A stretch of DNA of 56,342 nt from Peptococcaceae bacterium CEB3 (GTDB taxonomy: Bacteria > Bacillota > Desulfitobacteriia > Desulfitobacteriales > Desulfitobacteriaceae). Positions 4,992 through 32,452 of this stretch are shown piece by piece. The stretch covers positions 1 to 56,342 of the forward strand of contig LDXJ01000038.1 in the NCBI GenBank assembly GCA_001029295.1, in the 5' to 3' direction. The notes under the pieces are model-generated. The model saw nothing but the letters and a program-made list of their open reading frames with translations, searched no databases and was not told the origin of the DNA. A program made the position numbers and the translations under genes. Each line of letters begins with the position of its first letter. The first letter of the stretch is position 1.

Positions 4992-5089
4992 TCTTTCTGC
5001 CTCCCCGGTCATGAGATCTCGTGTCTAAGCAGCACGTTCCATCGGCTCTTTTTGCGCCGTAACATGTTGACAAATAAGCCGATATCACT

Positions 5090-7045: not shown

Positions 7046-7735
7046 CTACCGTTGACCATAGTACGCGTTGATACCGTGTTTTCTGAGGTAGTGTTTGTCC
7101 AAAAGGGCCTGATGTATCGACGTCAACGACGGATTCAGTATCAGAGAATGGTAAGCCATCTTGGCCACCTCTTCGAGAACAACGGCATTATGGACGGCAC
7201 CCAGAGCATCCTTTCCCCAACAAAACGGCCCATGGCTGTTCACAATAACACCTGGAACCTCCAAAGGGCTGCGGTCGCCTACCGTTTCAATAATAACTCG
7301 TCCTGTCTCCAACTCGTACTCCCCGCTAATTTCCGCATCCGTCATGTCTCGGGTACATGGAATAGTTCCATAGAAGTAGTCAGCGTGGGTGGTACCGAGT
7401 GCTGGAATAGACCGACCTGCCTGAGCCCAGATAGTGGCCCAACTCGAATGCGTGTGGACAATCCCGCCGATACTATTCATAGCTTTGTAGAGCGTTAGAT
7501 GGGTAGGCGTGTCCGAAGACGGATTAAGATGTCCCTCTACAACATTTCCGTCCAAATCTACCACAACCAAGTCCGTTGTGGTGAACTTGCCATATTCTAC
7601 ACCACTTGGTTTAATCACAAACAGACCTCTTTCGCGATCAATCCCACTAACATTTCCCCACGTGAAAATTACCAGTCCATGTTCCAGAAGTTGCAAATTG
7701 CCTTCGAGTACTTGTTCTTTTAGGTCTTCCAACAT
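7046..7735 (-). CDS. araD: L-ribulose-5-phosphate 4-epimerase
   Basis: Zinc-dependent class II aldolase-fold enzyme that converts L-ribulose-5-phosphate to D-xylulose-5-phosphate. At 229 residues it matches the usual length (about 231). The chosen ATG at 7735 gives the typical start [13 protein letters not shown] and has GGAGGT 7 bases upstream. An ATG 19 codons further up has none. The TWGNVSGID block (25-33), the zinc ligands in HTHS (94-97) and a downstream HADYFYG block are present. It lies between the deleted araA and araM on one strand, so it belongs to an arabinose operon. It reads intact. Confidence 0.95.
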
Positions 7736-7801
7736 GTTCGATACCTCCATGGCGAAAATAAGAATGGGTTTTTCCCTTGATCTGGCCATCACATCAATTT
7801 C

Positions 7802-8157
7802 TTAGCGGAACTTCCAAGCGGCTTCGCTCCAGCGCAATTTATTACGCAGTTCAGGCACCGAAGTATCTTTATCAATCACCACGCACTCGATGCCTACCAT
7901 TTCTGCCCAATCCACGATCTGTTCCACCGTGACATTGCACACATCTTATCGACATTTGCTGCAAGGCACACTTCTCGAATCTCAGCGGGAGTTGTCACCA
8001 GGGGCTTAAATTCGATAAAAAATGGGAGCGAATCGTCGACATTAAGACCGTCAACCATCTTTTGCACATGCTCTCTTGCTTGTTCAAGAGTCGCAGACCC
8101 GTACAAAGACTGGCTACCAGTTATGAAATAGAACGTATAGGGTTTCGTCCCCAACAT
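7802..8157 (-). pseudogene. araA: L-arabinose isomerase, internally deleted
   Basis: The first about 75 residues from the ATG at 8157 (good AAGGAGGG site) match the N-terminus of AraA (FITGSQSLYGSATLEQAREH, later VTTPAEIREVCLAANVD). The reading then jumps, in another frame, to the last about 44 residues of AraA (VEQIVDWAEMVGIECVVIDK, ending ELRNKLRWSEAAWKFR and a TAA at 7802). Roughly 350 central residues, with the metal-binding and catalytic part, are missing. AraA converts L-arabinose to L-ribulose, so this locus cannot supply that step. The neighbours araB and araD remain intact, which suggests either a recent loss or use of another entry substrate such as ribulose. Confidence 0.9.
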
Positions 8158-10181: not shown

Positions 10182-10805
10182 CTAGGAAGCCATTAATTGC
10201 TCAGCCTTTTCCACCGCTGTGGCCGCATCGGAGGCATAAGCGTCAGCTCCGATTTCATCGGCGAACTTCTGTGTCACCGGAGCACCCCCTATCATCACTT
10301 TGACCGGGTAGTCCTTCAGGCGTTCCATCGTATTTTTCATCTGAACCATAGTAGTCGTAAGCAGGGCGGAGAGCCCGACTATTTGCGGTTGATGCTCTTC
10401 GACTGCTTGGGCAAACTTGTCTGGCGCAATGTCTACACCCAGGTCGATCACTTTGTAGCCTGCACCCTCCAGCATCATGCGCACTAGGTTTTTCCCAATA
10501 TCATGCAGGTCCCCTTTAACCGTGCCGATCAAGACGGTCCCTTTGTCCTGTATGGCGCTGTCGGTCAAGAGCGGTTTGACCACATCCATCCCAGCGTGCA
10601 TCGCCCGGGCTGCAATGAGCACTTCGGGTACATAGACTTCGTTGTTTTTAAATCTAACTCCAACCACGTTCATCCCTGCAATTAAGCCATCATTGATAAT
10701 GCCTTGCGGTGCAAATCCCTCGGTTAAAGCCTTTTCGGCAAGCTCTTTGACCTTTTTGGCGTTCCCGCTGATAACAGCCTCGGCCATTTCTTGTAGTGTT
10801 GACAT
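10182..10805 (-). CDS. Corrinoid (B12-binding) methyltransferase protein, MtaC/MttC type
   Basis: Small corrinoid protein (207 residues) that carries a methyl group on cobalamin between a substrate methyltransferase and an acceptor methyltransferase. It has the helical B12-binding cap domain (about 1-85) and the Rossmann B12-binding domain with the cobalt-ligand motif D99-x-H101-x-x-G104 (KGDLHDIGKN), then GLSALLTTTM and GGAPVT for the nucleotide tail. The ATG at 10805 has GAGAGG upstream. An in-frame extension to 10898 lacks a site. It is unusual inside an arabinose cluster. The likely partners are the two URO-D family proteins at 13654 and 23351, which belong to the MtaA/CmuA superfamily. 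The substrate is unknown. Confidence 0.92.
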   Translation of the reverse strand: MSTLQEMAEAVISGNAKKVKELAEKALTEGFAPQGIINDGLIAGMNVVGVRFKNNEVYVPEVLIAARAMHAGMDVVKPLLTDSAIQDKGTVLIGTVKGDLHDIGKNLVRMMLEGAGYKVIDLGVDIAPDKFAQAVEEHQPQIVGLSALLTTTMVQMKNTMERLKDYPVKVMIGGAPVTQKFADEIGADAYASDAATAVEKAEQLMAS

Positions 10806-10914
10806 ATCTGTTACCTCTCTTTCTCTTGTGGATAGTATCCAAAACCGACTAACCTTCGGGGTGGAGTTGCAAATATGCAAAGAGTCATGGCACCGCATTG
10901 TTTAGGCTGTGGCT

Positions 10915-11277
10915 CTATCTCTGTGCAAAAGCGTTTCCGAAAAGGTACGCAAATTTCTCGTACATAGGAGAAATAACATATCTTGAAGCCAAAGTATCAC
11001 CTACCTGAACCACGTCTGCCCGATTCCTATAGATATAAAGATGGGTAGCTGTATCCACCGATGGTTTCCTGGATCCCTCAACCACCCGTCCAGATGGGCC
11101 CACAACAACCATGTCCTCTGGCGTCATCTTATCGTAAGAAGTGCCGCTCGGCTTAATAACCACATAGCCAGTTTTTTCGTCCCGCGCACTGACGTTCCCG
11201 CTGGTCATTGTGACCAGATTGTTCTTAGGCAATAGAACATTTAGCCTCTGTACCCTTTTCTTGAGTTCTTCCAGCAA
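10915..11277 (-). pseudogene. Class II aldolase/AraD-like gene, C-terminally truncated
   Basis: From a TTG at 11277 (AAGGAGG 8 bases upstream) the first about 93 residues match the N-terminus of AraD/FucA-type proteins (TMTSGNVSARD, VIKPSGTSYDKMTPEDMVVV, KPSVDTATHLYIYRNR). Just where the zinc-binding HTH motif should follow, the similarity ends and about 28 unrelated residues run to a stop at 10915. Zinc ligands and the catalytic part are absent, so it should be inactive. It may be the relic of the aldolase or epimerase that once worked with the adjacent corrinoid protein. The break looks like a deletion junction. Confidence 0.78.
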
Positions 11278-11449
11278 GCCAACCACCTCCTTGGTTGGTG
11301 CGATTCTTTCCGTCGCTTCTTCAGCGGTACCACTACGGCGTCTTAGAATGGACCCAGTTCCGAAAGCAGCGCCTAGGGGTGGCGACTCGCCTACGAGGCT
11401 TTTGGCAGAGTACAGCTAAGCATCTACCGTGTCTCACCCTATGGATCCA

Positions 11450-12262
11450 TTACACATCCCCTCCCGCCCTCACTACTTCCCGGCCGTCCTCCTGCAAGAG
11501 CTCAGCCAGCACATGGATAATGAAATCGGGTGCTGGCACGGAAGAGATCAGATCCTCCAGCCGTGTCACCCCGGTGAGCACAAGGGCGGTTTTGATTCCC
11601 GCCGCTGCACCCATCTTAATGTCTGTTTCAAGGCGGTCGCCGACCATTAGAATGTCTTCCCTTGGCAACCTCAGCCTGGACATGGCCGCATCCACCATCC
11701 ATGCCGAAGGTTTGCCGAGCACAGCCTCACATTTTCGCCCAGTGACAGCTTCCACTGCGGCAATCATGCCGGCAGCATCCGGTACAAGACCGTCTGGCAT
11801 CGGACAAGCCCGGTCGGCGTGGGTAGCAACGAGGCGGGCTCCGTTCAATACCGCGTGCATAGCATCGTTAAGCTTTTGGTAAGTGAAAGCACGGTCCCAG
11901 GAAACAACTACGTATTCGGCGTCGAGTGGGTTTCCCGTCACCATTAAGCCCGCCTTGGACAGTTCGTCAGCCAAGGGTTTTTCGCCGATCAGGTAAATAA
12001 GAGCGCCTTTCTTTTCTTTAGCCAGGTAACTGGCGGTTATCATAGCAGAATTTATTACGTCACCGTTAGCAACAGGCAAACCCATGGACCGTAATTTTTG
12101 CTGATATGATTCTACCGGTTCGATAGGCTTGTTGGACAAAAAAACGCAACGGGCACCACGTCGCTTCAACTCCAATATTGCGTTTACTGCGCCGGGGAGA
12201 GGGTCTTCGCCGAGATACACTGTTCCATCGAGGTCGAATATGTAACCTGCAAACAACCGCAT
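11450..12262 (-). CDS. HAD-IIA sugar-phosphate phosphatase (NagD/AraL-like)
   Basis: Haloacid dehalogenase phosphatase of the NagD/AraL type, 270 residues. The nucleophile motif DLDGT is at residues 10-14, followed by FLSNKP (motif II), the lysine in the VLGKPSAWMVDAA block (motif III) and MVGDRLETDIKMGAAAG (motif IV). The ATG at 12262 has GGGAGG upstream. In Bacillus the homologue AraL, a phosphatase with broad specificity for phosphorylated sugars, sits beside AraM in the arabinose operon. Here too it shares a locus with araM, which supports a clean-up role against toxic sugar phosphates. The exact substrate is not known. Confidence 0.9.
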   Translation of the reverse strand: MRLFAGYIFDLDGTVYLGEDPLPGAVNAILELKRRGARCVFLSNKPIEPVESYQQKLRSMGLPVANGDVINSAMITASYLAKEKKGALIYLIGEKPLADELSKAGLMVTGNPLDAEYVVVSWDRAFTYQKLNDAMHAVLNGARLVATHADRACPMPDGLVPDAAGMIAAVEAVTGRKCEAVLGKPSAWMVDAAMSRLRLPREDILMVGDRLETDIKMGAAAGIKTALVLTGVTRLEDLISSVPAPDFIIHVLAELLQEDGREVVRAGGDV

Positions 12263-12353
12263 AAGGCAAACCTCCCAAAGATAAAGTCAGCGCCACAACC
12301 CTTAACTACTTGACCATGGGCTCAACAACTTATCGTGCGGTACTAACCATAGT

Positions 12354-13337
12354 TCATTGACCAAGGTCCAAAACCGCACTGGCAGTAATGGTATCTGTCA
12401 CCAGGACGTCTACCAATCCAGCCCTTAAAGCACCAAGAATAGCAGGCGCCTTATATGCGCCGGACGCAAGTGATAACTTCACCGGAATGGCTTTGAATCT
12501 CTCGAGGCTAATGCCAATGCCGCACTTATAAAATCTATTAGTTACAGAGATTCTGCCGCTCTGGTCAAATAAAAATCTCCCGTTGAGTTCCCCAACCAAC
12601 GATTCTTCTTTTACCTCTTTCATGTCTTCATCAGTAAATACCTCGTTGAAAAGCAAGTTATTCTTGTCATATATATATCCAATCCCGGTTAGTGAAACAG
12701 TGCTTGCTTCTAGAACTCGTATAACCTGTTGAACACTTCTGCTGTCCATTAGCACATTCCTTTCCGCCTCCGTCTCCACGTAAGCCGGTGCGTACATAAC
12801 ATACCACTTCTTGGCCCCGAGGGCTTGAGAAAAGGAGCGCACCACATCACTCGGTTGCAGCTCTACGCTATGGTAGTTGATACCCCCCGTAAGTTGAGCA
12901 ACGGTTAAGTCAAAAGGTACCTTGTGTAGGTAATTGCTCATTAATAAAACCGTTGACCCCCAGAACAGACCTAGGACACAGGCCGGGCCTAGGTAGCGCT
13001 CTAATGTCGATGCGGCCGCTTCGGCCACATGTACTTTGGTTACATCTAGACTATCGTCCTTCTCCGCCGGAACGATCACCGCTTCCCGTATGTGAAAGGT
13101 CTCTTCTAAGCGCTTTTCCATCTCAACGCTAGAACGCGACGTACTGTGCATAATGATTTCGATTATTCCTTCGTCCCGGCTTTTCTGAAGCAACCGGGAT
13201 ACCGTAGGCCGGGATAGGTGAAACCTTTTAGCAACTTCTTGTTGGGTCAGATTTCCGATGAAGTATGCATATGCTATTTTTGTTATAAAATGCTTCTCAT
13301 CTTCCACAGCCTGGCACTTCCTCTTAACGTTTTTCAT
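12354..13337 (-). CDS. SorC/DeoR-type sugar-binding transcriptional regulator
   Basis: 327 residues with an N-terminal helix-turn-helix (about 28-55, including LTQQEVAKRFHLSRPTVSRL) and a C-terminal SorC sugar-phosphate-binding domain (about 60-325) with GLFWGSTV, LTGGINYHS and the SGAYKAPAILGALRAGLVDV end block. Regulators of this family sense phosphorylated sugars and act on neighbouring operons. It lies between the phosphatase and a URO-D gene on the same strand and probably controls the pentose or transport genes. The ATG at 13337 has only a weak ribosome site, which may mean low expression. Confidence 0.92.
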   Translation of the reverse strand: MKNVKRKCQAVEDEKHFITKIAYAYFIGNLTQQEVAKRFHLSRPTVSRLLQKSRDEGIIEIIMHSTSRSSVEMEKRLEETFHIREAVIVPAEKDDSLDVTKVHVAEAAASTLERYLGPACVLGLFWGSTVLLMSNYLHKVPFDLTVAQLTGGINYHSVELQPSDVVRSFSQALGAKKWYVMYAPAYVETEAERNVLMDSRSVQQVIRVLEASTVSLTGIGYIYDKNNLLFNEVFTDEDMKEVKEESLVGELNGRFLFDQSGRISVTNRFYKCGIGISLERFKAIPVKLSLASGAYKAPAILGALRAGLVDVLVTDTITASAVLDLGQ

Positions 13338-13653
13338 TGATGGATGTGTGTGGGGAAGTAGCTATACAACTTCCTGGCAAGTTAGTATAGAAATGGTTAT
13401 CGGGGCAATCCCTCCGGTCTAACAAACTCCCCTATAGACCTGATTTCCAAAGTCCGCTCAATAGCCACGTTTTCATACTTAGCGCAGAGCGTCGTCCCAC
13501 ATAACGATCCAATTTTCAGTGGTCACCCCTGGCGACAGATAAAGACTTTTTGATATTGTGCTTTTGCAAGTTAGCTCAACCGAGGGACCCCTAGTAAATT
13601 GGCTACCCGCCCGCCGTCCCTTGCTGCCTAGCCCTTACACCAGCCTCGTGGCA
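13338..13653 (-). other. Intergenic region upstream of the SorC regulator
   Basis: About 315 bases with no supported gene on either strand. It probably carries the promoter of the regulator and the 3' end of the URO-D transcript. No clear palindromic operator or terminator was recognised. Confidence 0.35.
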
Positions 13654-14676
13654 CTACACCTGTAGCGGGTAAGTGCCGAACTCCTTGACCGCATTGAGAA
13701 ACACTCTATAATTGACAGGGCTAATACCGGAATGTATAGAGTTACTAGAGGAGATAATATACCCCCCGCCTACCCCGGCTTTGCGGATACACGCCTTAAC
13801 TTCCCTCACCACGTGATCCGCGCTGGCGTCGACTAGAGTATGCACGCAATCAACATTGCCTTTCAGACAAACGCGATGGCCGTAAGTCTTTTTGACGTAT
13901 TCGATGTCCATTCCTGCCAACGGATCAATTGGGTCAAGACAGTCAATGCCGGTATCAATTAGATCCGTAACAACCTCCATAATATTACCATCGGTATGCT
14001 TAATAACAAACATCCCCGCAGCCTTGAGATTACGAATGAGCTTGGTAAAATGAGGTAAGACGATTCTTCTGTACATTTCTGGACTAATTAACAGTCCACT
14101 ATTACTAGCAATGTCGTCGCCGACAACCACAATTCTCACACCAAGTTCTTTGACATTTTTGGCAAGCCTAGTATTGTAGTCTACACTGATCTCCATGAGT
14201 CTTTCGATCAGGTCCGGCTGAGTGTAAAAGCTGACAAGGAAGTCCTCATAACCCAATAAGTCCCTAGGTTGGGCAAAAACATCCCTTAGGCGCACTATTA
14301 CGGCCTTATCCTCACCCACCTCTTTTATTACACGATTAATGTCATTAAACCTATACTCAGCGTCAGGATCTGGAATGGCGAGACTCTTCAAGTCTCTCTC
14401 GGACTTGATGGGAAAGGCAACCGGATTGGGATACTCGTCGTATGATACTCTGGTTATACCCCATTCATCCTTGTAGCAGCGATCATCAATCACCTCCTTT
14501 TTCATGTTGGGGGCAACTGCTATAGCATCAATGTCCATGGCCCGAATGAACTCGATTTCATCCCTCTGCCCAATCATCTTTTCGATAACATTGGGGTTAA
14601 TTATAAATTCAAAGGTCGGGATTCTATCCGGCTGACCCCCGCTCAGGGCGATCTTAACTCTTTCTTTGGCTTTCAC
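13654..14676 (-). CDS. URO-D family protein (MtaA/CmuA superfamily), HTDG variant
   Basis: A 340-residue protein of the uroporphyrinogen-decarboxylase superfamily, starting at a GTG after AGGAGG. Chromosomal heme-pathway HemE is excluded by the context and by the sequence around the active site. Methyltransferase relatives bind zinc through His-x-Cys and a later Cys. Here the matching place reads VIKHTDGNI (His227, Asp229 instead of Cys), followed by CLDPIDPLAG and LKGNVDCV. So it may be a variant with altered metal binding or a different reaction. It directly follows the ABC-transporter genes in transcription order, suggesting action on the imported compound, perhaps demethylation with the corrinoid protein (inference). 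Confidence 0.85.
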   Translation of the reverse strand: MKAKERVKIALSGGQPDRIPTFEFIINPNVIEKMIGQRDEIEFIRAMDIDAIAVAPNMKKEVIDDRCYKDEWGITRVSYDEYPNPVAFPIKSERDLKSLAIPDPDAEYRFNDINRVIKEVGEDKAVIVRLRDVFAQPRDLLGYEDFLVSFYTQPDLIERLMEISVDYNTRLAKNVKELGVRIVVVGDDIASNSGLLISPEMYRRIVLPHFTKLIRNLKAAGMFVIKHTDGNIMEVVTDLIDTGIDCLDPIDPLAGMDIEYVKKTYGHRVCLKGNVDCVHTLVDASADHVVREVKACIRKAGVGGGYIISSSNSIHSGISPVNYRVFLNAVKEFGTYPLQV

Positions 14677-14737
14677 GCACTCTACCTCCTCTTGCCATTC
14701 ATCTAGGGACCCCCTTCGTCAAGTAACTTTTGAAAAG

Positions 14738-14839
14738 CTAACTATATCGTTCTCGTAACGTCTGATATTTCCGAATGGTTTTACGGTGTTGACCAAACTT
14801 TTCAGCGAGCTCACTGAAGTTTAGAAGCAATGGCGATAA
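14738..14839 (-). pseudogene. Helix-turn-helix transposase scrap (possible IS21/IS481 type)
   Basis: A 33-codon stretch ends FSELAEKFGQHRKTIRKY then a few residues and TAG. This looks like the helix-turn-helix start of an IS21- or IS481-type transposase. No start codon or remaining part is present. It is short, so chance resemblance is possible. Confidence 0.35.
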
Positions 14840-14892
14840 CTTCACACTCGACAGACATTAAACTTTATGGGAGCCATGGAGCGTGCGAAATC

Positions 14893-15984
14893 TTAGTTCA
14901 GTCGCATGCCCGAAACCTTATCGAAGACAAATATACTTTCGCTGGGGATATCAATACTAAGCATGTCTCCTACGGTGAATTTGTGGGAAGAATCGGTTAC
15001 CACTACGATCTTTTGCCCTAATAAATCGCAAATCACATGCTTGCTATGGCCAAAATCCTCGTACGCAGAAATACGAACGGTAATCTCTCCGTCCCTCCTA
15101 ATCGTAACCGAAGTCGGTCTAACTCCTATCCTAACTTCAGTACCATCCCCAACGGACATTTTGGCTAAGCCAGGAAGACTTATAACAGAGGAAGACCCTT
15201 GCATGAGAAACGACATGCCTTCGGAGTCGTGGATCAGCCGTCCGGACAAAATGTTCATTGGCGGTTCACCGATAAAGCTCCCAACGAATTCATCCCTAGG
15301 GTTATCGAAGATCTCCATTGGTGTGCCATATTGTTGTAATACACCGTCTTTCATGATAGCTATGCGATCAGCTAAGGCCATGGCCTCCAATTGATCGTGA
15401 GTAACTATCACTGTCGTAGCATTAAGGGACACGATGATGCGTTTTATTTCAGTCCGCATTTCCTTTCTAAGAGTTCCATCCAGATGGGACAACGGTTCGT
15501 CCATTAATAAAATCTTAGGATCCCTTACTATGGCCCGGGCGATATTTATCCTCTGTTTCTCCCCGCCACCGAGCTTACTGGGTTTCATGTGGAGAATGTC
15601 GGATATTTTCATAAGTCCGGCGACTTCCACGACTTTCTGGTGGATTACCTTTTCAGCGACTTTTTTCGCCCTGAGATTAAAGGCAATATTGTCAAATACA
15701 GTAAGTGGTGGATATAGCGAATAATTTTCGAACACCAGCCCGATTTTGCGGTTCTTCGGGTCGACATCGTTTATTACTCGGTCATCGACCAAGATTTCCC
15801 CGTGCGTTACGCTTTCTAATCCAGAGATCATCCGGAGAGTGGTAGACTTTCCACAGCCCGAAGGTCCCAGCAACGCGACTACTTCGCCATCATTGCATTC
15901 AAGGTTCAGATCAGTGACCGCTCTTACTTCCTTGCGAGAATGGCGGTACACCTTGGTAAGGTTCCGTAATACTAGCTTTGACAA
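14893..15984 (-). CDS. Sugar ABC transporter ATPase 2 (UgpC/MalK-like)
   Basis: 363 residues: ABC ATPase domain (1-235) plus a C-terminal TOBE/OB regulatory part as in MalK and UgpC. Walker A is GPSGCGKST (40-48) and Walker B ILLMDEP (158-164), with the H-loop at VIVTHD. Two departures are seen. The Q-loop glutamine is glutamate (LVFENYSLYP, Glu86), and the signature is LGGGE (138-142) instead of LSGGQ. It starts at a TTG inside the end of the first ATPase gene (13-base overlap) with GGAGGG upstream, so the two are translationally coupled. CUT1 importers with two different ATPases are known, for example the glycerol system GlpSTPQV. Confidence 0.93.
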   Translation of the reverse strand: MSKLVLRNLTKVYRHSRKEVRAVTDLNLECNDGEVVALLGPSGCGKSTTLRMISGLESVTHGEILVDDRVINDVDPKNRKIGLVFENYSLYPPLTVFDNIAFNLRAKKVAEKVIHQKVVEVAGLMKISDILHMKPSKLGGGEKQRINIARAIVRDPKILLMDEPLSHLDGTLRKEMRTEIKRIIVSLNATTVIVTHDQLEAMALADRIAIMKDGVLQQYGTPMEIFDNPRDEFVGSFIGEPPMNILSGRLIHDSEGMSFLMQGSSSVISLPGLAKMSVGDGTEVRIGVRPTSVTIRRDGEITVRISAYEDFGHSKHVICDLLGQKIVVVTDSSHKFTVGDMLSIDIPSESIFVFDKVSGMRLN

Positions 15985-17117
15985 TTCAATCCCTCCAGGC
16001 GATCAGAAGCCGAATAGACCAGTTTCTTGGTATCAGGATCAAAAAGGAGACATTCCTCGGTAGAAACATTACAAGTTACGGTATCGTTAATCTTTCGGAC
16101 GATCGAGGCAGGTAAAACGACCTCCATGAATAGGTTTCTATTTTTTAGAGTCATAATATTGTTAATACCGCGTCGTTCAAATCCGTATACCAAGCCGCCG
16201 ACTGTTCCCTCCCCTCTCATCGTGTCAGTAACCGTTATATTGTGCGGCCTTATCCCCAGAAGAAACTCCCTCCCTGGATAGTTAGATAAAAACCTCGTTA
16301 GGTTCTCGTTTACTTTTAGACCTGGGTTTTTCAAGTCCTTAATATAAAAATGGCCATGTCCGCTTTTCTCGAGATATGTTACAGGCAGCAGATTTATCTG
16401 AGGATCGCTGAGCAGTGATGCGACAAAAATATCAGCAGGGCGATGATAGAGCGTTTGAGGGGTATCCACCTGGATAATTCTGCCTTTGTTCAAAACTGCT
16501 ACCCGATTACCGAGAGATAGAGCCTCTCGGTAATCGGGAGTAGCATATATGATCGTACTGGTGAGTGTTCCCTGCATTTCCTTAAACTCTATGCGCATCT
16601 CGTTGCGCAGCTTGGCATCAAGATGAGCCAACGGCTCGTCCATGAGAGAGACTGCCGGACTCCTAACCAAGGAACGACCGATAGCGACACGCTGTCTCTG
16701 TCCGTTACTAAGTTGCGACGGTTTCCGTTCTAAAAGTCCGTCGATCTGGAGTATTGCCGCAACGGATTTAACCGTTTTCTCAATTTTCTCCTTCGGCCAT
16801 TTTATCTTTGGACTCTTAAGTGGAAAAGCCATATTCTCATATACTGTAAGGTGAGGATATAGAGCATAGCTTTCAAAGACCATAGACACATTACGGTCCC
16901 GGATTTCTTGAGACGTGACATTTGTCTTACCCAAAAAAACATCACCTTGATCCGGGAGATATATTCCGCAAACGGTATTCAGCACAGTCGTCTTCCCGGC
17001 TCCGGAGGGACCAAAAAGCACGAAGAACTCCCTATCCGCAATTTCCAGAGAAACCTGGTGTAATGCCGTATTGCCATTGAACTGCTTACTGATGTTCCTT
17101 AATATCACGCTGGCCAT
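15972..17117 (-). CDS. Sugar ABC transporter ATPase 1
   Basis: 381 residues with an ABC domain and a C-terminal TOBE-like domain. Walker A is GPSGAGKT (36-43), the signature LSNGQ (136-140) and Walker B SLMDEP (157-162). The Q-loop again has glutamate for glutamine (MVFESYALYP, Glu82). In place of the usual TVIYVTHD H-loop it reads TIIYATPDYREALSL, so the switch histidine is replaced by proline. ATPase 1 therefore may be the less active partner of an asymmetric pair. It starts at an ATG with GGGAGG upstream, 13 bases after the permease gene, and is part of the importer operon. Confidence 0.93.
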   Translation of the reverse strand: MASVILRNISKQFNGNTALHQVSLEIADREFFVLFGPSGAGKTTVLNTVCGIYLPDQGDVFLGKTNVTSQEIRDRNVSMVFESYALYPHLTVYENMAFPLKSPKIKWPKEKIEKTVKSVAAILQIDGLLERKPSQLSNGQRQRVAIGRSLVRSPAVSLMDEPLAHLDAKLRNEMRIEFKEMQGTLTSTIIYATPDYREALSLGNRVAVLNKGRIIQVDTPQTLYHRPADIFVASLLSDPQINLLPVTYLEKSGHGHFYIKDLKNPGLKVNENLTRFLSNYPGREFLLGIRPHNITVTDTMRGEGTVGGLVYGFERRGINNIMTLKNRNLFMEVVLPASIVRKINDTVTCNVSTEECLLFDPDTKKLVYSASDRLEGLNCQS

Positions 17118-17130
17118 TTTTAATCCCTCC

Positions 17131-17952
17131 CTATCCTTTCACAGCGCCCAGACTTAATCCCCTTACCAAGTGCTTTTGAATAAGCACCGTTAAAGCTATC
17201 TCCGGAAGAGCCGAAATCACTGCGCCGGCCGCAAGCACACCGTAGTGAACAGTAAAGCCCCCGCCCATCATTTGCATAATTTGCACGGTAACCGTTTGAC
17301 TAACATTATTACTGAGAAGTAATGGCAGCGTGAAAGCGTTCCATGCAAAGATGAAAATAAGAAGAGTAGCTGCTACCAGCCCAGGACGAATAAGCGGCAA
17401 GAAGATTTTCATAAAGATCTGCAACCGATTATACCCGTCTATTGCTCCGGCATGTTCCAAGTCTGGCGATACATCCTCTAGGTAGGAGCGCAAAATCCAT
17501 ATAAAAAAAGGAAGAGTAATTAGTTGCAAAACCCATATTAATCCCGTATAAGTGTCGTACAGACCGAGGCGCTGATATATTACGAATAAAGGGATAATGA
17601 TCAGCATTGCTGGTGCAAATCTGAACGATAGAAAAGTAAAAGCTATATTTTCCCGTGCCCTGAACTTAAACCTGGAAAGGGCATAGGCAGCGGGTAGTCC
17701 AATTACGACTGACAAGCCAACGGCGCAAACACTAACAACGAGGCTATTGAAAAGAGTGTTGAGGTAATCGCTATTCATAAATATATCTCTATAGTTCCCC
17801 AATGTTGGGGAAAACACGTAAATAGTTGTAAACATCTGAGCGTCTGATTTGAAAGACATCAAAATCATCCAAAAAAAGGGGTATAGCGTAAACAGCGCAT
17901 AGACGCACAACAGAATTGGGTTCAATACGCGACCAAGCGTGCCTTTTCCCAT
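17131..17952 (-). CDS. Carbohydrate ABC transporter permease (MalG type)
   Basis: 273 residues with about six predicted membrane helices and the permease coupling loop EHAGAIDGYNRLQIFMKIFLP (quoted in two parts: EHAGAIDGYN and RLQIFMKIFLP), which matches the EAA motif for docking to the ATPase. It begins with a short cytoplasmic end and a first helix at about 10-32. The ATG at 17952 has GGAGG upstream. It lies 16 bases after the first permease and 13 before ATPase 1, so it is co-transcribed. It would form the inner-membrane channel as a heterodimer with the MalF-type partner. Confidence 0.93.
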   Translation of the reverse strand: MGKGTLGRVLNPILLCVYALFTLYPFFWMILMSFKSDAQMFTTIYVFSPTLGNYRDIFMNSDYLNTLFNSLVVSVCAVGLSVVIGLPAAYALSRFKFRARENIAFTFLSFRFAPAMLIIIPLFVIYQRLGLYDTYTGLIWVLQLITLPFFIWILRSYLEDVSPDLEHAGAIDGYNRLQIFMKIFLPLIRPGLVAATLLIFIFAWNAFTLPLLLSNNVSQTVTVQIMQMMGGGFTVHYGVLAAGAVISALPEIALTVLIQKHLVRGLSLGAVKG

Positions 17953-17968
17953 ATTGCTTCGACCTCCA

Positions 17969-18916
17969 TTAAATTTCCCCGGATGCCCTTTTCTGCGCCT
18001 TGAGCCAAAAGCTTACTAATAACTGACTCAGTACAAAAACTACTAGCCAGAGCAGAACCATATATGTTATGGCTTGGCCCATATTCATATACAGGAAGCC
18101 CTGCTCATATGCCAGAAGAGATAACGTCATCGTAGCATTTCCCGGGCCACCACCCGTTAGTCCATAGATTATAGCAAATTCTTGCAGAGAAACCATCAAC
18201 CTAAAGATAGCTGCTATGATGATAACCGGTGCTAACATAGGCAAAGTCAAGTTACGGAAAGTAAATAAGGTCCCGCCTCCATCTATCAAGGCGGCTTCAT
18301 AAGGCGCTATCGGTAGGGATTTTAGCCCCGCCAAAACCAGTAGAATGATAAACGGTGTGTAGATCCAAACATCGATCAAGACAACCGAGAACAAGGCCCA
18401 GTGGGGACTGGCTCCCCACTTGAAATTGTGTACCCCCAGCACGTTCAGGTAATGAGACAGGACACCCACAGAGGGATTGGTCATTAGTTGCCAAACTATC
18501 GTCGCAATAATAGGTGCTATCATTAGCGGGAAAATCAGCAAGACGCGCATCACCTTGACTAGCCGGTTTTCTTGGTTGAGAAGAAAGGCTATACCAATCC
18601 CCAAAACCGTTTCAACAGCCGTACAAACAAAGGCGTATTCCAGCGTTATAAGAAGGCTGTGCCAGAAATCAGGGTTACTAAACATGCTCGCATAATTCGC
18701 GATGCCAACGAAGTCAACCTTTGCTTTGTTAAAAGCAAAATCGGTAAAGCTATAATAAATCGCCAGGATGAACGGGTATAAGATACCTATTGTCACAACA
18801 AATGCCGGAGCAAGGATAAGATATGGTAAGCGAGCACGCTTTCTTCTTATCTTGCGCATCTCCCGCTGGTCGATGGATGGCATGCTGTCGGCACTGACTG
18901 TTTGCGTGTTATTCAT
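17969..18916 (-). CDS. Carbohydrate ABC transporter permease (MalF type)
   Basis: 315 residues. A basic cytoplasmic N-terminus (about 1-30) is followed by a first helix and five further membrane helices. The EAA coupling motif reads PYEAALIDGGGTLFTFRNLT, and the GLTGGGPGNATMTLSLLAYE loop is typical of CUT1 MalF-like permeases. It pairs with the downstream MalG-type permease. It is separated from the binding-protein gene by an 80-base gap holding a strong hairpin, which could lower permease output relative to the binding protein. No defect is seen. Confidence 0.93.
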   Translation of the reverse strand: MNNTQTVSADSMPSIDQREMRKIRRKRARLPYLILAPAFVVTIGILYPFILAIYYSFTDFAFNKAKVDFVGIANYASMFSNPDFWHSLLITLEYAFVCTAVETVLGIGIAFLLNQENRLVKVMRVLLIFPLMIAPIIATIVWQLMTNPSVGVLSHYLNVLGVHNFKWGASPHWALFSVVLIDVWIYTPFIILLVLAGLKSLPIAPYEAALIDGGGTLFTFRNLTLPMLAPVIIIAAIFRLMVSLQEFAIIYGLTGGGPGNATMTLSLLAYEQGFLYMNMGQAITYMVLLWLVVFVLSQLLVSFWLKAQKRASGEI

Positions 18917-18950
18917 TTTACCACTACCACCTATCCTACCAATTTGTCAG

Positions 18951-18986
18951 CCTAATTCCATCGGGGAAATCCCCGATAGAATTAGG
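18951..18986 (-). promoter_or_regulatory. Long hairpin between binding protein and permease genes
   Basis: A 16-base arm (CCTAATTCCATCGGGG) is followed by a 4-base loop and a matching 16-base arm with one mismatch. It sits just after the binding-protein stop codon and has no run of T. Such hairpins after binding-protein genes often stabilise the upstream mRNA or partly stop transcription, so that more binding protein than permease is made. The role is inferred. Confidence 0.7.
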
Positions 18987-18998
18987 CACCGCCGTAGC

Positions 18999-20411
18999 TT
19001 ACTTCACCGAAACGTCTTTAACCAAATTATCAACCTGTTGGGCCAGCGCCTTCATCCCCTGACTTGGGCTTGCCTGGCCGTTCACCATGTTTTGTATCGC
19101 AACTGCCCAATCGGTAGCTGTCTGGAAAAAATAAGGTTGGGGCGTAAAGTTCATTTTCGCGTGCGGGTAAAGAGCCTTCACCGTGTCATAATATCCCTTG
19201 GGGCCCTTAGTTTTGACGTAATTTATAAAGTCTGGGTTATTCCACACCGATGCCCTTACTGGGTCGATCAGGTAGCCATGGAGAGCGCCCCACGCCATTA
19301 GCTGCTTACCAGTAGCCCACTGGATAAACAACCAGGCAGCAGTCTTGTGCTTAGAGTATTTATTCATTGCTAAGGACCAAAGCCACTGATCGGAGGCAAT
19401 TTGACCATCTGGTCCTGCCGGCGGCATAGCTACGGCTAACTTTCCAGCTTCTGCAGAAGCACCTGGGAGATTCTCCCAGAATACCCCTGTATCGTCATCC
19501 CACATCATCGCCGCCTTGCCTGCACCAAAATCGGATAAAGTCTGCCAGTTTTGATAGTTAGCCCATCCAGGAGCGCCTCCGTCACGAAGTATAGCAGACC
19601 ACTGCCTAGCCCATTCGACAGCCTGTGGCGAACCGAAACCGCTCTTCAATTTACCATTTTCAACATTAAAGTCTTTGCCTCCTGCTGCGGTGAAAGAGGC
19701 AATGTCACCGGTGACTACGGCATCCCAGGACCTTGCACCTCTCACAACGAGACCGTAAGACCCCGGCCCGTTCCAGTCTTTAAGCTTGACAGCATCCTGG
19801 TATAGCTCCCGCAACGTCTTGGGTGGCGAAGTTATGCCCGCCTTCTTGAAGGCTTGCACGTTGTACGAAAGGGGATCCGTATCCATGCCCACCGGAATTG
19901 CCAGTAATTCACCGGTTCCTACTGGATCACCCGGCTTGAGATCCCACTTACTGTCACCCAACGCTGTGGGTAGGAAATCTGAGATATCAAAGTCCGGGGA
20001 TGTTAAACTGGGGTTATTGACAAAGGAGTTAAGGTCCTGAAAATAGCCGGCCGAACCATATTGCCAGGCTTGATAGGCGCCCGTCATGATTACGTCAGTC
20101 GACCCATTGCGCGCGCTCAGAACAGTGGAGACCTTATCGAAGTAACTTGATTCCGGGGCTTCGGTATATTTCACAGTAATGCCCGTAAGTTTCTCGAACT
20201 GTGAAATATGTTGAATTGCCGGCGTCATCCATGGGTGCTTTTCCAGAAGGACATTGATGGTTTGCCCTTTGGCACTAGTCCAACTGAAAGGACCGCTGGC
20301 GGATGTAGTCTCGTTGGTTGCCGACGTATTGCTGGTGCCACAGCCCGCTGCCACCAGGAAAAGCAGCGCAGATAGTGCGGTGACCAAAGTTATAACCTTT
20401 CTCTTCCTCAT
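18999..20411 (-). CDS. Sugar ABC transporter substrate-binding lipoprotein
   Basis: 470 residues from the ATG at 20411, which has GGAGGTGG 7 bases upstream. It starts MRKRKVITL, followed by a hydrophobic segment and the lipobox LVAAGC, so it is a membrane-anchored lipoprotein. The mature part is a CUT1-type extracellular binding protein (TAPESSYFDKVSTVLSARNG, later AMNKYSKHKTAAWLFIQWAT). It captures the sugar or polyol for the two permeases and two ATPases encoded downstream. Ligand identity cannot be read from the sequence. The context of pentose kinases favours a pentose, pentitol or a derivative. Confidence 0.93.
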   Translation of the reverse strand: MRKRKVITLVTALSALLFLVAAGCGTSNTSATNETTSASGPFSWTSAKGQTINVLLEKHPWMTPAIQHISQFEKLTGITVKYTEAPESSYFDKVSTVLSARNGSTDVIMTGAYQAWQYGSAGYFQDLNSFVNNPSLTSPDFDISDFLPTALGDSKWDLKPGDPVGTGELLAIPVGMDTDPLSYNVQAFKKAGITSPPKTLRELYQDAVKLKDWNGPGSYGLVVRGARSWDAVVTGDIASFTAAGGKDFNVENGKLKSGFGSPQAVEWARQWSAILRDGGAPGWANYQNWQTLSDFGAGKAAMMWDDDTGVFWENLPGASAEAGKLAVAMPPAGPDGQIASDQWLWSLAMNKYSKHKTAAWLFIQWATGKQLMAWGALHGYLIDPVRASVWNNPDFINYVKTKGPKGYYDTVKALYPHAKMNFTPQPYFFQTATDWAVAIQNMVNGQASPSQGMKALAQQVDNLVKDVSVK

Positions 20412-20519
20412 CAAGCGTCCACCTCCCAAAATACTTAGATGCCCTAAGCGTAGTAGTCTCTGAAGCCTTATCGTTTATTGTCCACTAAAAGTTCATTAGG
20501 CACCACCTCCTAATAATTA

Positions 20520-21060
20520 ATTTGTTCCTCCCCACTTGCTTCACGGTTGTACACCTTGGTTTATCTTCGTACCTTCGCAACCAGATGAGCTTTTGTCTCC
20601 CCTTGTTAAGCGTCCCTTGGATACTGTCCCTTTAGTTTTCCCCTCCAGACCCGTTACCGGCTTTCATTGGCTGTAGGTTCATCACTACAACGGACTCGTC
20701 TGCCAGTTGCATCATTTCTTCTCTCCCTTGCCTTTCGGCTTGTTCGAGCTTACCAAGGGTACAGGGTTTCCTCAGTTAAGTTCTCCTGCCTGAACATGAA
20801 CCCGTCCGTCCCAAATCCCCAGGTTATCCAGCCCTTGGGCTTTTCCACTTCTAGCAGGTTCCCACTTGAGGAGCCAATCTCGGTTCGCTCCCGCTACGTT
20901 CCACCCTCTTCCTTTAGCTTCCTTCAGACCTCGCTGTTATCAGCAGTGCCCTTGTCTTCCCACCCTGGTTAGGTGACAGGGTTTCTTGCAACCCTGCGGC
21001 TGAGCAAACATGCTAGGCAGACTAGAAGGCACCCCTCACGGGCTGCGAACCTCTGCTGTC
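20520..21060 (-). mobile_element. Group II intron remnant (pre-ORF part)
   Basis: Read on the minus strand the stretch contains GAGTCCGTTGTAGTGATGAA, then AAAGCCGGTAACGGGTCTGG and a GGAGGGG block. This order is typical of the RNA just upstream of the reverse-transcriptase ORF of bacterial group II introns. No reverse transcriptase frame and no domain V were found. It directly abuts another intron-like piece at 21090-21760. No protein gene is supported here. Confidence 0.5.
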
Positions 21061-21089
21061 ATCATCGGATGAATAGTTTTCCCGCATCC

Positions 21090-21760
21090 GCCTACCTTGA
21101 CTGTCCCCAGTGGGGAGATTCAAGGAGTTTGAGTTAATACTCGCACCCTTCTCTGTCCGGCTTCCGGTCACGAGTCCGGCACTGTTTGACCTGGCCCGTC
21201 TGTCGTTCCGAAGCGCTCGTCGGTTTCGTCATTCCCTGGATGAATCAAGGTACTATGACGGAGCTGACTCCTCCCGCAGCATGCGTTTTACCTATAACCT
21301 GCTCCCCGTTGGAGGCCGCAGGAGGTCTCGTTCGGTAACCCTATTTCGTTGTTCAGAGCCTCCCCATGCCTAAACACATATGTGCATCTCCCCAGGGATT
21401 CCTTACTTAACTTAGCCCCAGCTCGACCGTCTCCGGCAAGGCTGCAACTTCTAGCGCAGTCTCGCCTGACCATCTCGGCTTAATCAAATACCGTTGCCCA
21501 CCGCTTAGGTATTCAAAAGCGAGTCTGCTCCTCAACCTCAGGCCCTTTTCTGACCGCCTCACGCCGTGCCAAATAACCCAACTCTGGTCTGGACGGTTCA
21601 AGGGTTCGACCTTCAAGTGAACTCCCACAGTATCCTCGAATTTTCCCTCATTCCAGTGTAAGGGCTGGAACGGGAGGACAACACCTCACTAAACGAAATG
21701 GGGCTGCGAATCGCCCGCTAGTACTTGATTTTAGCAAGAGAATGCAGGGCATACATAACC
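21090..21760 (-). mobile_element. Second group II intron 5' remnant
   Basis: This is a diverged copy of the stretch at 5185-5560: the same order GGGAGGCTCTGAAC, GGGTTACCGAACGAGA, GTCATAGTA, TTAACTCAAAC on the minus strand, and it extends further 5' to about 21760. It lacks a reverse transcriptase. Together with 20520-21060 it splits the probable operon between the FGGY kinase gene and the binding-protein gene. Confidence 0.55.
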
Positions 21761-21801
21761 TCTCCAAACAAAGCTTTAACCTTATCATATTGATGGGAGA
21801 C

Positions 21802-23325
21802 TCAACTACCTTGAACAACCAATCTGGGAAAAGTATCTTTGAGGCTACTATAAAAACCTAAATATAAACTAAACATATGTTCGTAAATATGTCTATGAGC
21901 GAGATTGGGGGGTATAATTTCATGGATCTTAATCATCCTGCCAATAGCCTGGTCATAATCAGCAAAAACACCTGTGGCTATGCCCGCTAGGATTGCATTC
22001 CCCATCGGAGCGCCTAAACCATTCTTAAATAAGACAACCCTTTTTCCAGTTACATCCGCCAATATTTGCATCCAAACCTTGCTTCGCGAGGGCCCCCCTG
22101 TCACTTTTAGCTCAGGCGCCAATTCCCCCCCCTGTTCAAATATTTCGAGGTTATGCCTAAGGCTGTAGCAGACGCCCTCCATTATGGCGCGGATAATGTC
22201 GGCCCTACTGCTTCGCAAACTTAGGCCAATAAAACACCCTTTGGCGTGCATGTCCCATATAGGCGATGTTTCTCCGGCAAGGTAGGGCATAAATATTAAC
22301 CCATTACTGCCGGGCGGTGACGTGCTAGCCTGCTGGCTCAACAGATCATAAGACTGGATACCACATCTGGAAGCGAGGCTAACTTCCTCTTTGCCAAATT
22401 CCCTTTGAAACCATTCCAGGCAGGAACCCACATTATTCATTACAGCATCCAACAGCCATTCACCAGAGATAACATGAGGCAAAAGGTATGCCCCTTTATC
22501 GGGCTTTATCTGATCGATACACACACACAAGTTGCCCCCTGAGCCCATAGAGAAAAACGCCTCGCTAGGTGACTTGATCCCCACCCCAAGAGCGGCAGAA
22601 GCCGTATCGACACCCCCCGCTATAACAGGGACACCCGCGGGCAATCCTGTGATACTCGCGGCCTCCTTCGTTACGTGCCCGACAATTTGCGAACACTCAG
22701 ATGGAGACGGCAATTTGTCTAAAGGTATGTCCAACCTCGCAGCGACATCATCAGACCATCTCTGTTCGCCCATATCGAACAAGTGAATTAGCCCGGCTTC
22801 ACCCATATTTATACTATAGCATCCTGTCAGTTTGAAAATTACGTACCCTGATACCGTTAGTATTTTCGAAGCTTTGGCAAATAAATCAGGCTCATTTTCC
22901 TTGATCCAAATAATTTTCGGCAGTGGAAAGCATGGTTCAATCCGGTTCCCGTTTATCCTTTCAATAATCGATGCAGATTTCCCCATGAAGACGCATTGGT
23001 CACCGGCTCTATTATCCATCCAAATTATGGCGTTACGGAGTACCCGCCCATGCTTATCCACCAAAACTACACCAGATGATTGGGAACTTATCCCTATCCC
23101 AACAATTCTGCTACGATCAATGTTTTTACTGTAAACTATCTTTTTTATTCCACCAATAAAACTCTCCCACCAAATCTGCGGGTCTTGCTCGCTGGAAGCG
23201 GGGCCATGGGATGTCGGGTACTGTGTTAAGCTACTATCAAGCAGATTACCAAATGAGTCAACCAGGATCGATTTTACTCCCGACGTTCCAAAGTCTATGC
23301 CAAGGAGATATGCATTCTTTTCCAT
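21802..23325 (-). CDS. FGGY sugar kinase, xylulokinase-like
   Basis: 507 residues with the FGGY fold. The phosphate loop LLGIDFGTSGVKSILVD opens the protein, WMDNRAGDQ is the substrate-side block typical of xylulokinases, and the C-terminal block LKVTGGPSRSKVWMQILADV forms the ATP site. The likely reaction is D-xylulose to D-xylulose-5-phosphate, but related kinases act on other keto-sugars or polyols. The ATG at 23325 has GGGG upstream in a purine-rich leader. It lies between a URO-D protein and the importer operon, so its substrate is probably derived from the imported compound. Confidence 0.9.
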   Translation of the reverse strand: MEKNAYLLGIDFGTSGVKSILVDSFGNLLDSSLTQYPTSHGPASSEQDPQIWWESFIGGIKKIVYSKNIDRSRIVGIGISSQSSGVVLVDKHGRVLRNAIIWMDNRAGDQCVFMGKSASIIERINGNRIEPCFPLPKIIWIKENEPDLFAKASKILTVSGYVIFKLTGCYSINMGEAGLIHLFDMGEQRWSDDVAARLDIPLDKLPSPSECSQIVGHVTKEAASITGLPAGVPVIAGGVDTASAALGVGIKSPSEAFFSMGSGGNLCVCIDQIKPDKGAYLLPHVISGEWLLDAVMNNVGSCLEWFQREFGKEEVSLASRCGIQSYDLLSQQASTSPPGSNGLIFMPYLAGETSPIWDMHAKGCFIGLSLRSSRADIIRAIMEGVCYSLRHNLEIFEQGGELAPELKVTGGPSRSKVWMQILADVTGKRVVLFKNGLGAPMGNAILAGIATGVFADYDQAIGRMIKIHEIIPPNLAHRHIYEHMFSLYLGFYSSLKDTFPRLVVQGS

Positions 23326-23350
23326 TTTTTCTCAATCCCCTTCGTATTTT

Positions 23351-24472
23351 TTATACGCGAATGGGATACCGCCCGTACTCCCGAGCACATTCGAATAAAG
23401 TCACGATGTTTTCCGTAGGAACCTCTCCGAAAAGATTATGGGAGGGGGCCAAAACATAACCTCCGCCTGGGGCAAGATCCCTCACCCTAAGGGCTACTTC
23501 CCCTTTCACATCGTTTTCCGTTTTCAGCATCTTTTCTTGTACATCAATGCCACCCAAAAAACTTATCTGAGAACCAAACCTATCCTTTAGCACCTTTGAA
23601 TTCATGCCGTCCGCTAAAGGTTGAACCGGATTTAATATATCGAAACCCACTTCTATAAACTGATCGATGAATGCAGCTACGCTTCCGCAACTATGAAACA
23701 TGATTTTGGCATTTGGCGCTAGTTCCCTAATCCGCCCTATCAGCGTCTTGTGTTTGTCCGCGATCAGTTCCCGATAAAATGAGGGCGAAAACATCGGGCC
23801 GTGCTGAGTACCATAATCGTCCAGCATCTCCACAACCTGAACATATGGACCAATCTCTTTCAACTGTAACGTGTAAAGATCGAGATGCACTCTAAGAATC
23901 TTGCTCAGGAGAGCATCGGCAAAATCCTTATCGGCTATTAAATCCACCAAGAATTCTTCCGTTCCGCGCAGCATGCAGGCTTGCTCAAATAGGCCGCATG
24001 GAACCGGACGATACGCTACAATAGCGTAGCCAGTATGTTTATATAGATATTCGGCCTTATCCCTTATACCGTTGAGAATTCCAAGATTAGCTTCAGGCCA
24101 GACATACTTAAGGTAGTCCTCTTTTGCTCGTAATGGATGACCAACGGGCGCTGTAAAGTAGCCGTTGCTTTCAAAAGTGACTCCCCACTCATTGGTATAT
24201 ACATCGTGGGAAAATGGACGTGGATTAGCCAAATGCACGTAGCGAAAATCTGTGCCAAGCTTACCCAACAGCTCTTCGTCATAGCAGGTTTCGCTAATTC
24301 CCGTTAGAACCTTCTCGTATTGACTATCTGGGCATAATTTATTTCGTAATTTGAAATAGGCCTGATTAGCTAACTTGTGCCCCGTGCCACCCAAGGCAAG
24401 CGGTACTCTATCAGGTTCCTTCCGGTTTAAGGCCATGGTAACTCGCTCACGACTACTGATTTCGTTCTTCAT
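23351..24472 (-). CDS. URO-D family protein (MtaA-like), HSCG type
   Basis: 373 residues of the uroporphyrinogen-decarboxylase superfamily. In contrast to the copy at 13654 it keeps the His-x-Cys zinc motif (IMFHSCGSV, His260 and Cys262) used by cobalamin-dependent methyltransferases such as MtaA and CmuA. The C-terminus has the LGGIDVQEKM and GGGYVLAPSHNLFGEVPTEN blocks common in this group. It lies 26 bases upstream of the FGGY kinase and 77 bases downstream of a dehydrogenase gene, forming a catabolic operon. The best guess is methyl transfer to or from the corrinoid protein at 10182. The substrate is unknown. Confidence 0.86.
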   Translation of the reverse strand: MKNEISSRERVTMALNRKEPDRVPLALGGTGHKLANQAYFKLRNKLCPDSQYEKVLTGISETCYDEELLGKLGTDFRYVHLANPRPFSHDVYTNEWGVTFESNGYFTAPVGHPLRAKEDYLKYVWPEANLGILNGIRDKAEYLYKHTGYAIVAYRPVPCGLFEQACMLRGTEEFLVDLIADKDFADALLSKILRVHLDLYTLQLKEIGPYVQVVEMLDDYGTQHGPMFSPSFYRELIADKHKTLIGRIRELAPNAKIMFHSCGSVAAFIDQFIEVGFDILNPVQPLADGMNSKVLKDRFGSQISFLGGIDVQEKMLKTENDVKGEVALRVRDLAPGGGYVLAPSHNLFGEVPTENIVTLFECAREYGRYPIRV

Positions 24473-24548
24473 TTCTTTCCCAACCCTTCAATAACACTCT
24501 CTTTTCTCCGAGACCGAGCCCTGATCGCGCTTTCACCCTAAACCATAG

Positions 24549-28090: not shown

Positions 28091-28152
28091 TGCCAGTCCT
28101 CCCTCTCCCTTACTCTCCCAACAAGCCGCTCTCTCTTTGAACCGATCCTCGC

Positions 28153-29017: not shown

Positions 29018-29111
29018 ATCCGTACAGGTGGGATGCGCTTTGTTTCTGGGGAAACCCTACCCCTTCGGGTTTCGGGTGTGCGAGTATTTATGAGGCGTGC
29101 GAGGATGTTTC

Positions 29112-29477: not shown

Positions 29478-29482
29478 CCCTC

Positions 29483-30554: not shown

Positions 30555-30556
30555 GC

Positions 30557-32430: not shown

Positions 32431-32452
32431 TGGGCTCCTTTTCCCCCGGTTC

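Follow-up and report, generated by a model that had tools for sequence, protein, structure and literature searches.

Corrinoid-dependent O-demethylation is known for methoxylated aromatics, where the Odm, Vdm, Mtv and Mto systems each combine a methyltransferase I of the URO-D superfamily with a corrinoid protein, a methyltransferase II and a reductive activator. In the available part of its description the Mto operon holds two methyltransferase I paralogues (PMC8630106). The chloromethane system CdmBCA is likewise built of a URO-D superfamily methyltransferase I, a corrinoid protein and a methyltransferase II; its substrate is a haloalkane, sugars are not mentioned in the accessible text, and its tree contains clades of unknown substrate (PMC13222342). 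As far as these sources are accessible, the URO-D superfamily demethylases described act on methoxyaromatics or haloalkanes (PMC13222342, PMC8630106), and in the accessible part of a further report MtaA-like gene clusters are shown with sulfur and methionine genes (PMC10418091). Marine bacteria remove a methyl ether to feed sugar catabolism by P450 demethylation of 6-O-methyl-galactose, a sugar found in porphyran; an alcohol dehydrogenase gene lies nearby, and unlike a corrinoid route the reaction is that of a monooxygenase, yields formaldehyde and uses no corrinoid, according to the available text (PMC10033563). Here we describe a gene cluster of Peptococcaceae bacterium CEB3, on contig LDXJ01000038.1 (C38, 56,342 nt, hereafter the window) of a 5.3 Mb genome that is 98.5% complete, in which two URO-D superfamily genes and a corrinoid protein gene stand among genes for sugar uptake and phosphorylation.

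Judged by its gene content and by related operons, this cluster probably serves the corrinoid-dependent O-demethylation of O-methyl sugars, with the methyl group feeding the Wood-Ljungdahl pathway. We propose it as a corrinoid O-demethylase of the known kind with sugars as a new substrate class. Unlike in Odm, Vdm, Mtv and Mto, the genes nearby encode sugar importers, kinases and isomerases, no methyltransferase II or activator was recognised in the window cluster, and the proposed substrate is the methyl ether of a sugar. In the literature covered (titles and beginnings of abstracts, long result lists in part, mostly outside subscription journals) we found no earlier description of the arrangement and no report of corrinoid-dependent demethylation of sugars. 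The initial annotation had placed the corrinoid protein, both URO-D proteins, an ATP-binding cassette (ABC) importer, an FGGY kinase, a 2-hydroxyacid dehydrogenase and ara genes on one strand, and profile matches located every one of them on the minus strand. The central features are:

10182..10805, minus strand, corrinoid protein (methyl carrier), MtgC-like; PF02607 and PF02310 (B12-binding_2 and B12-binding)
13654..14676, minus strand, URO-D1, URO-D superfamily, proposed second methyltransferase I with an H-T-D-G variant of the putative metal motif; PF01208 115 bits
14893..15984, minus strand, ABC ATPase; PF00005
15972..17117, minus strand, ABC ATPase; PF00005
17131..17952, minus strand, ABC permease; PF00528, top NCBIfam models the sugar permeases GlcU and MalG, below cut-off
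17969..18916, minus strand, ABC permease; PF00528
18999..20429, minus strand, extracellular solute-binding protein of the importer; PF01547 117 bits
21802..23325, minus strand, FGGY sugar kinase, xylulokinase-like; TIGR01312 362.3 bits, below the XylB cut-off of 380.25
23351..24472, minus strand, URO-D2, URO-D superfamily, proposed O-demethylating methyltransferase I; PF01208 71 bits
24549..25628, minus strand, D-2-hydroxyacid dehydrogenase; PF02826 196 bits, PGDH model 256 bits, below the cut-off of 454

The importer genes span 14893-20429, and the 2-hydroxyacid dehydrogenase gene sits just beyond the end of the 10182-24472 stretch. With a score below the equivalog cut-off, the FGGY kinase does not qualify as XylB by that model.

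For the substrate, the methyl transfer, the metal and the order of the steps we infer the following. The importer would take up an O-methylated sugar, perhaps a pentose, a pentulose or a related polyol. URO-D2 would act as methyltransferase I, and URO-D1 likewise for another position or substrate; a bound metal would activate the methyl ether and the corrinoid protein in its Co(I) state would accept the methyl group. The freed sugar might then be phosphorylated by the FGGY kinase and used by pentose-phosphate enzymes, while a methyltransferase II encoded elsewhere would move the methyl group off the corrinoid protein and onto tetrahydrofolate, for entry into the Wood-Ljungdahl pathway. RACo, also encoded elsewhere, would re-reduce the corrinoid. 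On chemical grounds, a methyl group on O2 of an aldose would have to be removed before the isomerase step.

The same genome holds several operons that join a URO-D2 relative to the genes of one particular sugar, the sugar being assigned by enzymes above equivalog cut-offs (XylA/XylB, RhaI, GalT/GalK, FucI). At locus L159 a URO-D2 relative and a corrinoid gene accompany XylA (735 bits, cut-off 533), XylB (594, cut-off 380), an RbsABC-type importer and an ROK regulator. L049 combines the same pair with an importer, RhaI (612 bits, cut-off 531) and a rhamnulokinase-like kinase (485 bits, below the cut-off of 528), and L052 with a GH16 protein, an importer, GalT (201, cut-off 102), GalK (463, cut-off 385) and a GalE-like epimerase that was scanned with Pfam only. 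At L155 the pair stands with an importer, FucI (1087 bits, cut-off 775) and a rhamnulokinase-like kinase (450 bits, below cut-off); FucI can also act on D-arabinose. These xylose, rhamnose, galactose and fucose-type operons with the same protein pair support the suggestion of the initial annotation that importer, kinase, URO-D and corrinoid protein together serve the catabolism of an O-methylated sugar. More mixed clusters of sugar and URO-D genes occur in this genome at L169, L047, L048, L050 and L160. In L170 (7703-16509) a URO-D2 relative lies with a DeoD phosphorylase, a pseudouridine-kinase-like kinase (below cut-off), a PF04227 protein and an RbsABC-type importer; a corrinoid gene was not found in that stretch, and use of a 2'-O-methyl nucleoside is possible.

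The substrates might instead be methoxylated aromatic glycosides, the sugar genes serving the sugar part while the URO-D/corrinoid pair demethylates the ring, as the known URO-D superfamily O-demethylases act on methoxyaromatics in the accessible text of PMC13222342 and PMC8630106. Against this, a scan of part of the neighbouring genes in the four operons (xylose, rhamnose, galactose and fucose type) turned up no aromatic-ring gene and a single glycosidase, the GH16 of L052; the importers are of sugar type by label, and a URO-D2 relative sits in the nucleoside-type operon L170. We regard the aromatic explanation as improbable.

Co-occurrence of the gene set in other genomes, which the initial annotation had raised, was found for a core of it: the solute-binding protein, two permeases, the FGGY kinase and URO-D2 recur in L034, L058, L103 and L125. 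The subfamily of the window solute-binding protein (above 300 bits) is present in 6 of 102 loci, namely the window, L034, L058, L088, L103 and L125, all with URO-D2 and all but L088 with an FGGY kinase; the proteins of the window and L103 are 33% identical. L034, from the same genus, carries a DeoR regulator, an aldolase, the solute-binding protein, two permeases, the FGGY kinase, two URO-D2 genes, an alcohol dehydrogenase and a corrinoid gene. L037, also from the genus, holds an RbsABC-type importer, three URO-D2 relatives, a corrinoid gene, GalT, GalK and GalE (455 bits, cut-off 262), the last being the counterpart of the L052 epimerase, so the coupling to galactose is kept although the importer type differs from that of L052. 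Within the same family, L043 unites XylA (720), XylB (605), an importer, URO-D2 and a corrinoid gene. L199 and L042, overlapping stretches of one contig from the family, contain RhaI (627), a rhamnulokinase-like kinase, an aldolase-family protein, microcompartment genes, an importer, two URO-Ds (compare the paralogues of Mto), a corrinoid gene, a PF00809 methyltransferase and a complete RACo. By their sequences all four predicted O-demethylase parts are here at the end of a rhamnose locus.

It could also be that the window is a chance neighbourhood or a decaying remnant, in which a pentose cluster amid mobile elements acquired a methyltransferase module and is no longer a working pathway. An araA stub, a second araD stub, a shortened AckA beside fragmented microcompartment frames and group II intron parts at 32394-33619 would fit such a history. 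The genes of 10182-25628 are nevertheless open and of normal length, the second araD excepted, and of the four other loci with the core set three come from other genomes of Spirochaetota, Bacillota and Chloroflexota, and we find this origin very hard to credit.

In the CEB3 genome, a URO-D match occurs no more than 10 kb away from 7 of the 12 FGGY kinases, while about 9% of the genome is that close to one (binomial p 3e-5, a test that takes genes as independently placed and does not allow for gene clustering). As a control, 34 corrinoid genes in fetched stretches of the genome were grouped by the nearest methyltransferase type. Among the nine nearest to a URO-D2 relative, seven had a sugar ABC importer within 8 kb and six a sugar kinase, compared with 0/8 and 0/8 for those nearest to MttB (6) or MtaB (2); the two near none of these methyltransferases gave one and two.

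We further compared the 20 best URO-D2 loci from other genomes of the phylum (one partial match skipped) with 20 corrinoid loci away from URO-D2, taken roughly by score from URO-D2-bearing genomes with the own genome left out. A sugar ABC importer was present in 9/20 URO-D2 loci and 0/20 controls (p 0.001), a kinase alone in 5/20 and 1/20 (p 0.18, not significant) and either in 11/20 and 1/20 (p 0.001). The labels here, as in the control with 34 corrinoid genes and in part of the locus descriptions, come from home-made profiles built on URO-D2 neighbourhoods that could miss unlike sugar genes in control loci, and in the 20-against-20 comparison contig ends truncate several stretches in both sets. 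Tests with the Pfam profile FGGY_N are free of this profile bias, and placed a kinase within 10 kb of 16/75 URO-D2 genes against 1/61 corrinoid genes (p 4e-4), or 10/62 against 1/53 with the own genome excluded (p 0.01). A corrinoid test over the phylum (24/24 vs 86/125) is weak, since methionine synthase was counted.

A profile scan of genome contigs yielded at least 504 URO-D2 relatives, of which the best 80 loci were used (79 with a gene called). These 80 belong to Bacillota, Chloroflexota, Spirochaetota, Atribacterota, Actinomycetota, Planctomycetota, Verrucomicrobiota, Thermodesulfobacteriota, Thorarchaeota and others. Within 8 kb, the 79 had a sugar ABC importer in 22 cases, a sugar kinase in 17, either in 31 and a corrinoid gene in 17; for the 35 that are at least 18 kb long the counts were 9, 4, 11 and 13. 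In Moorella stamsii, a culturable bacterium, genes labelled RbsA and RbsC stand within 10 kb of the URO-D2 relative (L133). A tblastn search of plasmids with URO-D2 gave six records; the best match, with 32% identity across 98% of the query, lies on a plasmid from Chloroflexota, and the annotation of the genes around it names Gfo/Idh, sugar isomerase, ROK and sugar ABC.

For the other parts of the proposed route we looked across genomes. Corrinoid matches were present in 47/47 URO-D2 genomes (those of 45 of the best 80 loci, plus G000 and G001), 45 of them at E 1e-50 or better; the matches of G058 and G068 are near 1e-41 and may be something else. RACo was detected in 19/20 URO-D2 genomes (no match in G068) and in 1/14 control genomes. 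The CEB3 genome has 41 URO-D matches (PF01208), 44 corrinoid matches at E 0.001, methionine synthase included, and eight RACo matches (PF14574), none of the latter in the window. ACS is present in this genome. No PF00809 methyltransferase (MtrH-like) was recognised in the window cluster, and three such pterin-binding methyltransferases have corrinoid genes as neighbours in other parts of the genome (L157, L164, L165).

Several observations weigh against the demethylation of O-methyl sugars. A corrinoid gene is lacking within 8 kb at 62/79 URO-D2 loci, many of which are cut short, and at 22/35 of those at least 18 kb long. TRAP importer labels beside URO-D2 relatives (L134, L141, L142, L146, L149) indicate that the family is not confined to sugars, and these members likely act on other methylated substrates. 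Of the 15 corrinoid genes of CEB3 nearest to other URO-D types, only 2 had a sugar ABC importer and only 5 a sugar kinase nearby. ACS was matched in 11/20 URO-D2 genomes and not in the other 9, so the methyl group may go elsewhere in these. No intact sugar isomerase was recognised in the window, which leaves a methylated ketose or polyol as a possible substrate, and the HAD hydrolase, the hydroxyacid dehydrogenase and the second araD have no place in the proposed route. In two further clusters with sugar importers, L048 and L050 (16005), the corrinoid protein shares only 52% identity with the one encoded in the window. On the corrinoid tree the fucose-type operon's protein branches away from the main group, and the proteins that carry the URO-D2 label do not cluster (155/500 shuffles as low). 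Finally, no enzyme activity for the URO-D2 subfamily was reported in the literature covered.

The frequent lack of a corrinoid neighbour and the 2-hydroxyacid dehydrogenase gene adjoining URO-D2 in the window would both suit a different reaction of the sugar-operon URO-Ds, such as decarboxylation or carbon-carbon cleavage of a sugar acid, that needs no corrinoid. We consider this unlikely, as URO-D2 shares an H-x-C motif with MtaA that is absent from HemE, nearly all URO-D2 genomes hold corrinoid and RACo matches as counted above, and the corrinoid gene adjoins the URO-D2 relative in L043, L049, L155 and L037 and is one open reading frame away in L052. The initial annotation had named genomes whose URO-D genes always lack the corrinoid gene as contrary evidence; many URO-D2 neighbourhoods lack one, but each of the 47 genomes has a corrinoid match.

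The fold of URO-D2 agrees with a methyltransferase I without singling it out. An AlphaFold2 model from 47 sequences (pLDDT 93.9, pTM 0.93) gave as top Foldseek match the MtaA of M. mazei (4ay7, E 1.6e-15), with VIA-align at Z 27.7 and a root mean square deviation of 3.3 over 315 aligned residues; uroporphyrinogen decarboxylases reached up to Z 28.4, 3.1 and 320, a tie with MtaA. A phmmer search of PDB sequences with URO-D2 found no match. In the alignment of 47 rows (A2), H259 is present in 47/47, position 261 holds C in 39 rows and D in the other 8, and H occupies position 344 in 39/47. We read H259, C or D261 and H344 as a putative metal site; the H-x-C part aligns with the MtaA/CmuA family (TIGR01463), which URO-D2 also resembles in fold, and H344 seems to stand where MtaA has a third cysteine, if its zinc ligands are as we take them to be. 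Membership of MtaA/CmuA itself is rejected on the curated cut-off for URO-D1 and URO-D2 (97.5 and 44.3 bits, cut-off 235.4), as is HemE (TIGR01464), with 32.9 bits for URO-D1 (cut-off 302.95) and no listing of URO-D2 at E 0.001.

In the URO-D tree, which like the corrinoid tree is a quick search with many open forks, URO-D2 falls within an 18-row clade (SH-aLRT 96) from 16 loci; at nine of them a sugar ABC importer or sugar kinase is encoded within 8 kb. The nearest partner of URO-D1 is the URO-D (SH-aLRT 91, 35% identity) of a cluster on contig C64 that comprises PfkB, an aldolase, an importer, an alcohol dehydrogenase, a corrinoid gene and the URO-D. The rows closest to the window URO-D2 in its tree fork (support 92) are those of L055, L057 and L060 (Chloroflexota), where an alcohol dehydrogenase, URO-D2 and AraD stand in line, together with proteins that by eye are phosphotransferase system (PTS)-like; L055 also has a PF00215 enzyme.

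The window corrinoid protein carries the base-off motif DxHxxG-x41-SxL-x24-GG (DLHDIG, SAL, GG) and scores 236 bits with NF047996, below the cut-off of 370. Its identity is 86% with the counterpart in the galactose operon L052 and 85% with the one in the sugar operon L034; for the rhamnose, xylose and fucose-type operons the values are 71, 70 and 60%, and for MttB modules 41-57%. On the tree the galactose, rhamnose and xylose proteins share a 20-row fork with it (SH-aLRT 82), separate from the proteins of MttB modules. The pattern is compatible with related carriers that would be able to work in trans with specific URO-D partners, and by its position the window protein would be the partner of URO-D1 and URO-D2.

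More generally, the loci may belong to a modular O-methyl-sugar system of anaerobes of many phyla, a view for which we see about even chances. Related, partly interchangeable corrinoid proteins would serve a URO-D family that diversifies fast. Every member would handle a single sugar (xylose, rhamnose, galactose, fucose or D-arabinose, pentulose, perhaps 2'-O-methyl nucleosides) and be built into the ordinary operon for it, with both sugar and methyl group used. Sugars with O-methyl groups are found in plant pectin, algal galactans, microbial glycans and RNA. A corrinoid route, if true, would explain how anoxic microbes open them, add sugars to the methyl donors of acetogens and give a function to URO-D superfamily clades of unknown substrate. 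As the sugar of several of the enzymes is named by their operon, the hypothesis is directly testable.

The remaining genes of the cluster are:

1789..3822, minus strand, transketolase; TIGR00232 873 bits, cut-off 682
3894..5012, minus strand, transaldolase; TIGR00876 342 bits, cut-off 234
7046..7792, minus strand, AraD, L-ribulose-5-phosphate 4-epimerase; TIGR00760 407 bits, cut-off 389
7894..8157, minus strand, araA fragment of 87 aa; PRK02929 65 bits, residues 4-74 of 499
8215..9879, minus strand, AraB, L-ribulokinase; TIGR01234 621 bits, cut-off 583
10915..11286, minus strand, araD-like, truncated copy that matches AraD models over roughly their first 100 residues only
11450..12262, minus strand, HAD-IIA hydrolase; TIGR01460 142 bits, cut-off 100
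12354..13337, minus strand, SorC/DeoR-type sugar-binding regulator; PF04198 185 bits
26037..26795, minus strand, DeoR-family regulator; AgaR and SrlR-type models, below cut-off

In the direction of transcription the order is DeoR regulator, 2-hydroxyacid dehydrogenase, URO-D2, FGGY kinase, a 1.4 kb gap, solute-binding protein, two permeases, two ATPases, URO-D1, SorC-type regulator, HAD hydrolase, truncated araD, corrinoid protein, AraB, araA stub, AraD, a PF13685 dehydrogenase, transaldolase and transketolase. The gap (20430-21801) contains no recognised gene and no Rfam match at gathering score. The ara genes of the initial annotation are intact for AraB and AraD, while araA is a stub and the second araD is truncated. 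The araA fragment is the sole PF02610 (AraA_N) match in the whole genome, and a complete L-arabinose araBAD pathway is rejected.

Microcompartment genes occupy 27029-32185, with fragmented frames at 28110-29017 and a shortened AckA (288 aa, covering 82-341 of 405); by eye this stretch resembles the more complete rhamnose microcompartment locus that a relative carries at L199/L042. At gathering scores, Rfam matches in 1-34000 consist of the group II intron parts only. Farther along the window a BlaR1-type M56 peptidase is encoded at 39221-41317 and an 876-aa PPDK_N/PEP-utilising protein at 50932-53562.

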